Positions 52,124 through 57,160 of a DNA stretch of 64,000 bases are shown piece by piece. The translations under genes were made by a program, and so were the position numbers. Location of the stretch: assembly GCF_000948975.2 (NCBI RefSeq), contig NZ_CP059735.1:3224001-3288000 (forward strand), read 5' to 3'. The notes under the pieces were generated by a model, which was not told the DNA's origin, searched no databases, and worked only from the letters and a program-made list of their open reading frames with translations. This stretch comes from Thalassomonas actiniarum (lineage in GTDB: Bacteria; Pseudomonadota; Gammaproteobacteria; Enterobacterales; Alteromonadaceae). How positions within the stretch are numbered: position 1 is the first letter of the stretch; each line of letters begins with the position of its first letter.

Positions 52124-54310
52124 TTACTTGGCGGCTAACACCCGGCGGGCCTGATGAAGCTTTTTATAGCTTTCAATCAGTCTCAAGTGTTTGTCCAGCC
52201 CTTCAAGCTTCATGCTGGTTTTGGTCAGGCCAAAGAATTTCACTTCGCCGGTTACCGAGCCAACAACATTCTCCATGTTCTCTTTACCGAACATTCTGCC
52301 AAGGTTGTCAATAAAGTGCTCCAGCTCCAGTTCTTCGTCCAGCACAATCTCAAGTACGGTATGAACGGCTTGATAGAACAAACCGCGCTCTACCGTGTTG
52401 TCGTTATACTGCAAGAACTCTTCTACCAGCTCAATCGCCTGGTCAAGCTCACCTAATGCCAAGTAAATAAGAATTTTCAGCTCAAGAATGGTTAGCTGGC
52501 CCCACACGGTATTTTCGTCGAACTCAATACCAATTAAGGTGCGGATATCGATATAAGCGTCCAGCTGGCTTTCTTCCAGGCGCTCCACCAAACTTACCAG
52601 GGCATCATCGCTTAATGAGTGGAGATTGAGGATATCTTCACGGTAATGTAGCGCCTTGTTGGTATTGTCCCAAATAAGGTCTTCAACCGGATATACTTCG
52701 GAATATCCCGGCACCAGAATACGACAAGCACTGGCGCCGAGCTCATTAAATTCGGCAATATACACTTCTTTGTCCAGCTGCTTTAAAATGGCCAGCAAGC
52801 TTTCGTTTTCTTCGGCATTGCTGCCGGAGAAATCCCACTCGCAGAATTCATAATCATGCTTGGCGCTAAAGAAGCGCCAGGAGATCACGCCGGTTGAATC
52901 GATAAAGTGATCAACAAAGTTTTCCGGCTCAGTAACCGCCATGCTGTTAAAGGTTGGTTTGGGTACGTCATTTAACCCTTCAAAGCTGCGGCCTTGCAAC
53001 AGCTCGGTTAAACTGCGCTCCAGCGCCACTTCAAAGCTGGGGTGGGCACCGAAAGAGGCAAATACCCCGCCGGTTTTCGGGTTCATCAAGGTGACACACA
53101 TCACCGGGAACTGTCCGCCCAATGAGGCATCTTTAATCACCACAGGGAAGCCCTGCTCTTCTAAACCTTTAATGCCCGCTAAAATGCCCGGGTACTTTTC
53201 CAGCACCTGCATCGGCACATCCGGCAGCACAATTTCTTGCTCGATAATTTGCTTTTTCACTGCCCGCTCGAAAATTTCCGACAAGCACTGCACCTGCGCT
53301 TCATGCTGGTTATTACCCGCACTCATGCCGTTGCTTAAGAATAAATTCTCAATCAGGTTAGAGGGGAAATATACGGTTTTGCCGTCGGAATGACGTACGT
53401 AGGGAATTGAACAGATGCCGCGCTCAGCCATGCCCGAGTTGGTATCGATAAGGTGTGAACCGCGCAGTTCACCGTCCGGGTTGTAGATGCCCAGGCAGTA
53501 ATCATCCAAAATGCCCTGAGGTAATTCGTCATTTTCGTCCGGCTTAAACCATTTTTCATTCGGGTAATGAACAAAGTCACTGTTGGCAATTTCTTCGCCG
53601 AAAAACTGGTCGTTATAGAAGAAATTGCAGTTAAGGCGTTCGATAAATTCGCCTAATGCCGAGCACAGCGCGCTCTCTTTGGTTGCGCCTTTACCATTGG
53701 TAAAACACATCGGTGAGGCGGCATCGCGAATATGCAGCGACCACACGTTGGGCACTATGTTACGCCAGGAAGAAATTTCGATTTTCATGCCAAGGTCGGC
53801 CAAAATGCCGGTCATGTTGGCAATGGTTTTTTCAAGCGGCAGATCTTTACCCAGAATATAAGTGCTGGCATCCTCTCCCGGGTGTCCCATCAGCATCGCC
53901 TGTGCGTCATCTTCCAGGCTTTCAACCGCTTCAACCTTAAACTCGGGGCCGGTTTGTACCACTTTTTTCACGGTGCAGCGGTCAATGGATCTTAAAATGC
54001 CCTGGCGATCTTTTTCAGAAATGCTTTCCGGCAGCTCTACCTGAATTTGGAAAATTTGGTTATAGCGGTTTTCAGGGTCAACAATGTTGTTCTGCGACAG
54101 TCTGATGTTGTCGGTAGAAATATCGCGGGCCGCACAATAGACCTTGACAAAATAAGCCGCACACAGGGCGGACGAAGCCAGGAAATAGTCAAACGGGCTG
54201 GGGGCCGAGCCATCACCTTTGTAGCGGATCGGCTGATCAGCGATAACAGAAAATTCGTCAAACTTAGCTTCAATTCTAAGGTTGTCGAGATAATTAACTT
54301 TGATTTCCAT
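52124..54310 (-). CDS. ycaO: OsmC-YcaO fusion protein
   Basis: About 728 residues from ATG 54310; an ATG at 54349 adds 13. The first ~140 residues are OsmC-like (SPFDYFLASSALCAAYFVKVY, with the Cys of the family). From about 150 follows the YcaO part with SYILGKD-like TYILGKDLPLEKTIANMTG, NVWSLHIRD, CFTNGKGATKESALCSALGE and FIERLNCNFFYND. This matches E. coli YcaO, the ATP-dependent enzyme linked to beta-methylthiolation of ribosomal protein S12; the C-terminal TPR-like helices are also present. The OsmC fusion occurs in other gammaproteobacteria. No RiPP recognition domain is apparent. Confidence 0.9.
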   Translation of the reverse strand: MEIKVNYLDNLRIEAKFDEFSVIADQPIRYKGDGSAPSPFDYFLASSALCAAYFVKVYCAARDISTDNIRLSQNNIVDPENRYNQIFQIQVELPESISEKDRQGILRSIDRCTVKKVVQTGPEFKVEAVESLEDDAQAMLMGHPGEDASTYILGKDLPLEKTIANMTGILADLGMKIEISSWRNIVPNVWSLHIRDAASPMCFTNGKGATKESALCSALGEFIERLNCNFFYNDQFFGEEIANSDFVHYPNEKWFKPDENDELPQGILDDYCLGIYNPDGELRGSHLIDTNSGMAERGICSIPYVRHSDGKTVYFPSNLIENLFLSNGMSAGNNQHEAQVQCLSEIFERAVKKQIIEQEIVLPDVPMQVLEKYPGILAGIKGLEEQGFPVVIKDASLGGQFPVMCVTLMNPKTGGVFASFGAHPSFEVALERSLTELLQGRSFEGLNDVPKPTFNSMAVTEPENFVDHFIDSTGVISWRFFSAKHDYEFCEWDFSGSNAEENESLLAILKQLDKEVYIAEFNELGASACRILVPGYSEVYPVEDLIWDNTNKALHYREDILNLHSLSDDALVSLVERLEESQLDAYIDIRTLIGIEFDENTVWGQLTILELKILIYLALGELDQAIELVEEFLQYNDNTVERGLFYQAVHTVLEIVLDEELELEHFIDNLGRMFGKENMENVVGSVTGEVKFFGLTKTSMKLEGLDKHLRLIESYKKLHQARRVLAAK

Positions 54311-54581
54311 CGAACGGTTTCCGAAGTTGTGCGCTGCAATCGGAAGCATTTCAAACCTGATGTTTGAGGTTTTTGCCGGCTGCCAATTAGCGGATTGATC
54401 TTAATTGGGGGATTATCCTTGTTTTTGCGCCAATAGTCTTGGGTAAATTGCATTAATTGGTGAAATAGGTGTTTTTAAGGGGGGAACTATGGCGCACAGC
54501 GCGGGACTTGGATAGTCACTTATTTTTTTAGCCCGTTTTTATGAATGGGTTAACAATAGTAATAATTTCATCTCCCTAGTA

Positions 54582-55623: not shown

Positions 55624-55649
55624 ATAAAAAGCCCCATAAAAATGAGGCT
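55624..55649 (-). terminator. Rho-independent terminator of the small peptide gene
   Basis: On the minus strand AGCCTCAT, TTTT, ATGGGGCT form an eight-pair stem followed by TTTTTATT. It lies 24 bases beyond the peptide stop, so the peptide gene is an independent unit. Confidence 0.65.
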
Positions 55650-55672
55650 CAATTCAATACAACTGGGTAAAT

Positions 55673-55843
55673 TTAGATTTCCTTACAGGCATGTCTGCCG
55701 TCGGTCCAGCTACATGCCGGCGCATCCGTTAACTGATATGTGGTGGGGTTGCCGCCACCAACTTGTGGTGTCATGCCTAGGGGAAGCGATTTCGCATCTT
55801 TAGAGAGGTTTTTTAATTTTTCTTTTGTTAGTTTGAGTTTCAT
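55673..55843 (-). CDS. Small peptide with double-glycine leader, RiPP-precursor-like
   Basis: 56 residues, too short for most gene finders. AAAGGAC stands seven bases before the ATG and a T-tailed terminator follows the stop. The first 31 residues are Lys/Leu-rich and helical (MKLKLTKEKLKNLSKDAK) and end in TPQVGGG, like leaders cut after a double glycine. The remaining 25 residues, beginning NPTTYQLTDAPACSW and ending GRHACKEI, have two Cys plus Thr, Ser and Asp. This is the shape of a bacteriocin or ribosomally made modified peptide. No lanthionine synthetase or peptidase-transporter is adjacent; an OsmC-YcaO gene is 1.4 kb away on the same strand. Confidence 0.7.
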   Translation of the reverse strand: MKLKLTKEKLKNLSKDAKSLPLGMTPQVGGGNPTTYQLTDAPACSWTDGRHACKEI

Positions 55844-55995
55844 CTCTAAGTCCTTTTTTGTGATTAATTGTTGATGTCTGTTATTAACACTGACATCAAC
55901 AAATTACGGTTAAAGTGGTTAAAAGTCAAACAACAAGAAGGTTTTTTATTTACCTTTGGGAGTGATATCAACGACAGAAAAAAGGGGCGCTCTTG

Positions 55996-56430
55996 TTACA
56001 TCTTCTGCCCCTGCTTTTCTACAGCCGAACTTGATTGACCGGTTAAATTTTTAACTTGCTCAAGCTCAGATTCAGTGAGTTTCCCGTAAAGGCGCGGATA
56101 TGGCCAGCCATAACCCCACCTGAACTTGGTCGGTAAAAACGGTGTGCCGCCAATCCTTACACCAGCCAGCATCAGCAGTGCTATTTCGGGTTCTCCAACC
56201 TTAGCTACACAAGATTCTAAAGCTTTATCGGATTCCAGACGTTCTTGATAGGTACCACCTTTCCAGTAGTCATAGTCATGTTGATAGCAGCAAGACAGCC
56301 ACAGTTCGTTTTGTTCAAGTGTGCCATCAGGGAAGGCGCTGCAGCCATCACTTACGAACGGCTTTAAAGTATCAGCTTTACTTGAAAGGGAAATAAGGGC
56401 CACTATGGCCAAAACTAAAATTTTCTTCAT
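55996..56430 (-). CDS. Secreted phospholipase A2-like protein
   Basis: About 144 residues from ATG 56430 (an ATG at 56451 is possible). The signal peptide MKKILVLAIVALISLSSKA is followed by DGCSAFPDGT and CCYQHDYDYWKGGT, in which the HD pair after Cys matches the catalytic helix of the phospholipase A2 fold, and further Cys (ESCVAKVG). Calcium-dependent lipase activity is possible but the usual calcium loop is not obvious. It follows a hypothetical gene closely on the same strand. Confidence 0.7.
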   Translation of the reverse strand: MKKILVLAIVALISLSSKADTLKPFVSDGCSAFPDGTLEQNELWLSCCYQHDYDYWKGGTYQERLESDKALESCVAKVGEPEIALLMLAGVRIGGTPFLPTKFRWGYGWPYPRLYGKLTESELEQVKNLTGQSSSAVEKQGQKM

Positions 56431-56466
56431 CTGGTTGTAGTGCTGATTCATGGTGAAAGGTTTTGC

Positions 56467-56850
56467 TTACTCAATGACTGGCGCTTCTTTTTGTCCGCCA
56501 TTTAGTATATTTTCTGGAATATTGCTGTAATTGTTTACTTCGGTATAGTGAGTTAAATAGAAACAAACCTGACAAAGGTAATCTATAGCAACTGTTCGAT
56601 AACATTCAGTATTTGGCTTCGGCGAACGTACTTTAATTTCAGCGCTAGCTCGTCTGATGAATGTAGGAATGTTTTCATAATTTTTACTTTCAAACAATGC
56701 CACGATAGTGTTTACATAACTGACCATAGGGAAACTCACATCATTTCTCCGATAACATTGCTCGGGAACATAGCTTGGATGATTGAGTACGCGGTGGAAT
56801 TTTTTGATTTCCTTCACTGCTTTCTTGGCACCGTCTAATGGTGATGACAT
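56467..56850 (-). CDS. Unknown protein before the PLA2-like gene
   Basis: About 127 residues; AGGGGAGGG directly precedes two adjacent ATG codons, the second (56850) has the better spacing. No signal peptide. The sequence is helical with several Cys (CYRRNDVSFPM, ECYRTVAIDYLCQVCFYL). It ends 37 bases before the PLA2-like start, so they could be co-transcribed. No family recognised. The 310 bases upstream (56851-57160) contain no clear gene. Confidence 0.6.
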   Translation of the reverse strand: MSSPLDGAKKAVKEIKKFHRVLNHPSYVPEQCYRRNDVSFPMVSYVNTIVALFESKNYENIPTFIRRASAEIKVRSPKPNTECYRTVAIDYLCQVCFYLTHYTEVNNYSNIPENILNGGQKEAPVIE

Positions 56851-57160
56851 CATCCCTCCCCTGAGGTGCAACTGAGTTAAACGACAAACTCTTAGTAGCT
56901 CCTAATTAAAGCACCGGAGTATGTTCGAGCGACTTATATCAAATTTGTAATTGGGTCACTTTAGCATTTGTTATCCGCCAATAGCTAGGTTTCTTGAGGA
57001 TCAACCTGCCCGTGATTTTAATTTGAAGCAAGAGCAGGCGCACCTCTATAGAGCCAAACCCATCAATCCGTTTTTCTCAATACAACACACCAACGAATTG
57101 GCAGGGCTATGATCTCCCCTATCACTGCCTAGCTTTGACTGTCCTAAATGTTCGGCTCTG

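Follow-up and report, generated by a model that had tools for sequence, protein, structure and literature searches.

A dispersed family of probable class I lanthipeptide precursors in Thalassomonas actiniarum

A short open reading frame in the genome of Thalassomonas actiniarum has the look of a RiPP precursor; is it a gene, and which enzymes would act on its product? The window analysed here is a stretch of 64,000 nucleotides (C1:3224001-3288000) of the 7.49-Mb genome (G000; contigs C1 and C2), and within it no match to LanB, LanC or C39 came up when the whole genome was searched for these families. The first-pass annotation had seen no maturation enzyme or C39 transporter close to the frame; such genes do exist at other places in the genome. 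Our analysis points to a class I lanthipeptide precursor, one of 29, that would be matured in trans by the genome's single LanB and the LanC beside it. To this reading we assign a probability of roughly 0.86, because of the leader family, its co-occurrence with LanB, the polarity of Ser/Thr and Cys in the cores, and selection on the core.

The Precursor Gene and Its Signals

The gene (P0001; minus strand, 55673..55843) encodes 56 amino acids and a stop, as the first-pass annotation had proposed and translation confirms. Its product consists of a leader of 31 residues, MKLKLTKEKLKNLSKDAKSLPLGMTPQVGGG (minus strand, 55751..55843), which is the conserved block of the family alignment (A1) and ends in TPQVGGG, and a core of 25 residues, NPTTYQLTDAPACSWTDGRHACKEI (minus strand, 55676..55750). 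The GGG leader end had been remarked on at first pass, and a GG-type end is conserved in alignment A1. The ribosome-binding site and T-tailed terminator claimed there are likewise present: a ribosome-binding region, AAAAAGGACTTAGAG (minus strand, 55844..55858), also found in the orthologue of another Thalassomonas genome (G013), places AAAAAAGGAC 6 bases ahead of the ATG, and a hairpin search with folding located, 3′ of the stop, a hairpin that resembles an intrinsic terminator and carries a T tail (minus strand, 55650-55629; −14.2 kcal/mol, with a weak z of −1.8). A search for a sigma-70-like promoter recognised none. Neither Pfam nor NCBIfam contains a match to P0001; a peptide 98% identical to it occurs in Thalassomonas sp. 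RHCl1. The core contains two T-D-x(2-3)-A-C units, which suggest two methyllanthionine rings.

A Leader Family Scattered over the Genome

With P0001 as query (E up to 10), 29 leader matches were found in the genome, P0001 included; the weakest two lie near E 1, and most matches cover no more than the first 40 or so residues. The profile A1 was built from 28 members, without L032, in which no ATG or GTG stands at the aligned start. It brought back the full set of 29, each with E < 1e-8, and one extra chance match inside LanB (E 0.87). The genes occupy 22 sites, separated from one another by over 20 kb and distributed over both contigs, and GGA stands within 20 bases before the start in 26 of them. 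Open reading frames were first counted at 30, and dropping one 21-residue fragment gave 29 cores. The leader/core cut was fixed at residue 31; L032, with its longer start, keeps six leader residues in its core.

Mean pairwise identity between paralogues is 62% in the leaders and 21% in the cores, the latter to be compared with 20% for shuffled cores; the exception to unrelated cores is RYCASD, common to three of four tandem genes on C2. Short proteins thus share a TPQVGGG-type leader while their cores vary, which supports the RiPP-precursor interpretation given at first pass. Many scattered precursors with a constant leader and a variable core are a prochlorosin-type trait; the usual class I arrangement, in which a precursor is clustered with its enzymes, is absent at P0001, which lies 2.0 Mb from them.

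The class I leader model NF038158 (lant_leader_L1b; cut-off 27 bits) does not match P0001, and gives weak matches to 2 of 28 own-genome members (E up to 0.1). Among ten other precursors (nine from relatives) three match at E up to 1, the best with 18.8 of the 27 bits. No Nif11 model is among the Pfam matches of 28 family members (E up to 0.1).

An all-against-all comparison of reading frames of at least 80 residues in 23 own-genome stretches revealed no common dedicated enzyme. The few shared neighbour families are ABC ATPases (including a C39 pair), an HlyD pair, a LanC pair, secreted peptidases with PPC domains, chemotaxis receptors and other pairs. Two of the secreted-peptidase-like frames with a PPC domain, one reprolysin-like (L067:10128-11732) and one M9 collagenase-like (L045:6564-9200), are each separated by roughly 0.2 kb from a precursor of the same orientation; in three other Thalassomonas genomes (G013, G061 and G095) the first also stands beside precursors, with 92-97% conservation.

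Composition and Polarity of the Cores

The 29 cores (747 residues) hold 9.2% Cys, compared with 0.90% in reading frames above 250 residues of the fetched stretches; the corresponding values are 11.9% and 5.35% for Thr, and 5.5% and 6.98% for Ser. Cys is present in 27 of the 29 and Ser or Thr in all, and the number of Cys is odd in nine.

Dehydrated Ser or Thr usually precedes its Cys in a lanthionine. Every Cys of the cores (69/69) has a Ser or Thr 2-12 residues to its N-terminal side, a value that none of 2,000 shuffles reached (51.9 ± 3.8), and on the C-terminal side the count is 44 of 69 (shuffles, 51.7). Since the dehydrated residue usually comes first, an excess confined to the N-terminal side is what lanthionine chemistry would select. 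Ser or Thr likewise lies upstream of Cys in 45/45 cases in G013 and 60/60 in G095 (14 and 21 Cys-containing cores; 15 and 22 reading frames were recovered from 16 and 23 profile matches). Among 51 precursors from other genera, the 45 with a clear V/I-x-GG boundary were used and six dropped; their cores give 173 of 180, with shuffles at 142.7 ± 6.2 and none of 2,000 reaching the observed count.

Modification Enzymes and Exporters

The genome encodes a single LanB, found by family search (C1:5278339-5281461; 1040 residues, with N and C domains present), next to a LanC (C1:5281472-5282671, family search). Two family members adjoin this pair on the same strand; LanB lies 2.0 Mb from P0001. It aligns to 9g04 and, from residue 35 to 1033, to NisB, and keeps R83, R87, T89, R784, R786, E823 and R826 (counted on the NisB alignment), positions that we take to have functional roles. 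The LanC carries WCYG and CHG motifs and aligns to 8byk. A second LanC (L046; C1:2734928-2736148) has no LanB beside it; two precursors lie at distances of about 10 and 13 kb. The only LanM of the genome, a class II enzyme (L054), is at C2:773089-776439, with no family member within 50 kb.

Five reading frames have a C39 domain, and two of them have HlyD-like neighbours (neighbours were read for two of the five). The best exporter candidate is the HlyD and C39-ABC pair at C1:88848-92308, in which the C39 transporter itself occupies C1:90092-92308. Two family members without Cys, L032 and L028, lie near two such pairs (C1:88848-92308, L048; C1:6392912-6396370, L049); peptides like L028 also occur in G061, G013 and G095. 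These may be unmodified peptides that use the common leader.

Co-occurrence with LanB in Relatives

The family was represented by 295 genomes, of which 26 match the precursor profile at E ≤ 1e-4 and 32 match PF04738. The PF04738 match is present in all 26 leader-bearing genomes and in 6 of the 269 others (Fisher p 7e-32, a value that ignores relatedness; the counts are not independent because the 26 genomes fall in 11 genera). The matches in the six leader-free genomes (G037, G044, G082, G116, G144 and G245) are weak, with E between 1e-18 and 1e-35; G040, which does carry the leader, has a weak match too, made of LanB fragments only (E 1e-27). Precursor matches number 29, 29, 16 and 23 in the Thalassomonas genomes G000, G061, G013 and G095, and 1, 6, 9, 16, 19, at least 22 and at least 22 in seven genomes of another genus (g18).

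LanB neighbourhoods were compared in 24 relatives and the own genome, with G040 and the six weak-match genomes left out. A leader-bearing gene is present in 21 of the 25 (20 by leader model, G042 by profile match), LanC in 24 and a C39-ABC transporter in 20. The order in g17 (G017 and G063) is precursors, LanC, LanB, HlyD, C39-ABC, and several others are similar. Four g18 neighbourhoods (G018, G201, G230 and G242) have LanB, LanC, C39 and HlyD, but the leader model recognised no precursor in the stretches read. The leader family thus occurs beside modification and export genes, in the genome and in the LanB neighbourhoods of relatives, as the first-pass annotation had asked to be checked. The own C39 transporter shares 51-63% identity with 18 of the 20 transporters in these neighbourhoods and 27-28% with the remaining two (G080 and G127); the closeness to the 18 suggests a common exporter, in Thalassomonas now unlinked from LanB.

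Some precursors in relatives are unusual. One in G096 (L171:6856-7248), beside LanC and LanB, has a core of near-identical four-residue repeats (TCGS, TCGA, TCGV) that could form a run of small rings. In two others (L159:10776-10970 and L166:12117-12365) a VLPNEL/LTP stretch is nearly duplicated inside the leader, before the GG.

Across 394 genomes sampled from the order, the profile matched five; one of these belongs to another family, and its precursor is L243 (G385:C411:2515-2676). A1 confirmed no relative in IMG/VR (600 stretches, one pattern), and tblastn of P0001 confirmed none in plasmids or in phages.

The first-pass annotation had likened P0001 to double-glycine bacteriocins and to the leaders of modified peptides. 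The genome has C39 exporters that could act on a GG-type leader end; a plain unmodified bacteriocin, whose core would be exported by a C39 transporter with its two Cys as a disulfide and without LanB, is made less likely by the Thr/Ser-to-Cys polarity and the co-occurrence with LanB. Such a peptide would draw on the C39/HlyD pairs of the genome, and the Cys-free L028 and L032 near them show the leader on peptides unable to form lanthionine; nevertheless, neither Ser/Thr placed before Cys nor a LanB in 26 of 26 leader-bearing genomes is expected of disulfide peptides, and an odd number of Cys in 9 of 29 cores fits them poorly. We regard this explanation as unlikely.

It is also conceivable, with a probability that we put at a few percent, that LanM modifies the dispersed precursors and that LanB and LanC serve only their two neighbours. 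LanM is present in the genome, scattered precursors are the known prochlorosin pattern (PMC10783134), and LanM is enriched in leader-bearing genomes (7 of 295 genomes in all; 5/26 as against 2/269, p 7e-5). However, 21 of the 26 leader-bearing genomes have no LanM match, G013 among them with its 16 precursor matches; LanM has no family member nearby, and the LanB-adjacent precursors carry the same leader as the rest.

Orthologues, Selection and the History of the Site

Orthologues of P0001 were found in two other Thalassomonas genomes, G061 and G013, by a core-score threshold; in G095 none was recognised by core score. The core is identical in G061; in G013 the core is 92% and the leader 81% identical, and the core keeps T3, T4, T8, C13, T16 and C22, with S14 changed to G. 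The dN/dS of the whole reading frame is about 0.04 against G061 (seven changes only) and 0.18 against G013. Across 21 pairs with G061 it is 0.07 for cores and 0.09 for leaders, and core values for four pairs each are 0.08 with G013 and 0.15 with G095; all pairs are of equal length with at least 60% core identity, a choice that favours conserved pairs. Cores are mostly unrelated between paralogues, and those with orthologues are maintained under purifying selection, as the low core dN/dS between species indicates. Together with the 29 genome-wide matches to the leader, the orthologues and their low dN/dS establish as genuine what had been put forward as an overlooked gene.

The same data bear on whether P0001 is a relic or a non-expressed copy. 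The failure to recognise a promoter would agree with this, but low dN/dS in core and leader, and a start, ribosome-binding site and terminator that are intact here, in G061 and in G013, make it improbable. The hairpin stretch is almost unchanged in both orthologues.

A 231-bp unit running from ribosome-binding site to terminator (minus strand, 55628..55858) is 86% identical to the G013 locus; beyond it, the ycaO side is the sole other part of the 3.2-kb G013 locus that aligns. Differing flanks in G013 had raised the suspicion that the precursor had moved between sites, which is ruled out: ycaO lies directly next to the precursor in G013 and is 91.6% identical to the ycaO of the window, so the site is the same. 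The SnoaL-like, Nudix and PLA2-like neighbours have been gained or lost there. The PLA2-like gene, considered as a partner of P0001, was rejected since it occurs in only two of the four genomes of the genus; the reading frame so described at first pass (55996-56451, 151 residues) and the next one (56467-56871, 134 residues) match no model of Pfam or NCBIfam at E ≤ 0.001. That the YcaO (52124-54349) turns Cys and Thr of the P0001 core into azolines is hardly credible, for despite the proximity of ycaO and precursor here and in G013, the protein meets the cut-offs of the equivalogs TIGR03549 (OsmC/YcaO) and NF040716 (ribosomal S12 methylthiotransferase factor), falls below that of the azole-forming SagD family, and has the other 28 family members elsewhere.

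Proposed Maturation and Its Significance

Leader binding and glutamyl-tRNA-dependent dehydration by LanB, ring closure by LanC and cleavage by C39 peptidases are established biochemistry. For P0001 as a class I precursor, the 31-residue leader would be recognised by LanB (C1:5278339-5281461), which would dehydrate Thr and Ser of the core; because the gene lies 2.0 Mb away, we infer that LanB acts in trans. Both Cys would then be joined into rings by LanC (C1:5281472-5282671); the simplest pattern, Thr8-Cys13 and Thr16-Cys22 in core numbering, is favoured by the paired T-D-x(2-3)-A-C units and by the replacement of S14 with G in G013. Cleavage behind the double glycine and export would fall to an ABC transporter with a C39 peptidase domain and an HlyD partner, whose genes lie elsewhere; C1:88848-92308 is the best candidate. 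One enzyme set could in this way serve 29 precursors at 22 sites and yield many products, which may be secreted antagonists or signals. Counting against the reading are the distance between P0001 and LanB, the two of 29 cores without Cys, the LanM of the genome and its enrichment in leader-bearing genomes, the lack of a recognised promoter, the relatedness of the genomes counted and a leader below the NF038158 cut-off.

What this adds to the first-pass description is the membership of P0001 in a large and scattered family, most likely of class I lanthipeptides that are modified in trans. If so, one tRNA-Glu-dependent dehydratase of class I accepts about 29 natural cores, its substrate tolerance can be tested with natural substrates, and the question of why large sets of lanthipeptides are maintained in marine bacteria gains a second example. 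The arrangement also matters for genome mining. One large study restricted its search to seven genes either side of a LanC-domain gene (PMC7268733). Under such a rule about 25 to 27 of these 29 genes would go unnoticed: two adjoin LanB, and two more are about 10 and 13 kb from the second LanC.

Comparison with Known Systems

Class I lanthipeptides have been described from this genus: thalassomonasins A (25 residues, three Cys) and B (26 residues, two Cys) of T. actiniarum, and the viridisins of T. viridans, as summarised in a review (PMC11433236). The own LanB-adjacent cores fit the thalassomonasins in length and number of Cys (25 residues with three Cys; 26 with two), a match to the published description. 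Their precursors belong to the same leader family as P0001. The review (PMC11433236) gives the thalassomonasin leaders 29 residues, whereas 31 are counted here, and describes thalassomonasin and viridisin precursors as clustered; P0001, in contrast, lies 2.0 Mb off and has an unrelated core.

Other marine class I lanthipeptides are the pseudorosins of Pseudoalteromonas flavipulchra (PMC12819058) and PciA of P. citrea (PMC9993889), which resemble the P0001 family in marine origin and in its probable class. The leader model NF038158 is approached by some family members, which match weakly below its cut-off, and by P0001 not at all. Among the papers listed by text searches, no title or abstract opening reported dispersed class I precursors, a scope outside which the primary Thalassomonas and pseudorosin papers lie.

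The closest parallel in organisation is that of the prochlorosins and synechococsins, in which one enzyme (ProcM or SyncM) is reported to act on tens of hypervariable precursors that can be scattered over the genome (PMC10783134). Like them, the P0001 family appears to pair one enzyme set with many scattered precursors of variable core; unlike them, it combines LanB and LanC with a short Lys/Leu-rich leader, where the described systems use a class II LanM and Nif11-family precursors. It is probable that Thalassomonas and at least one other genus of its family (g18) possess a class I 'natural library', in which a LanB/LanC hub matures many dispersed precursors, most of whose cores no longer resemble one another, and the prochlorosin arrangement has been reached independently.
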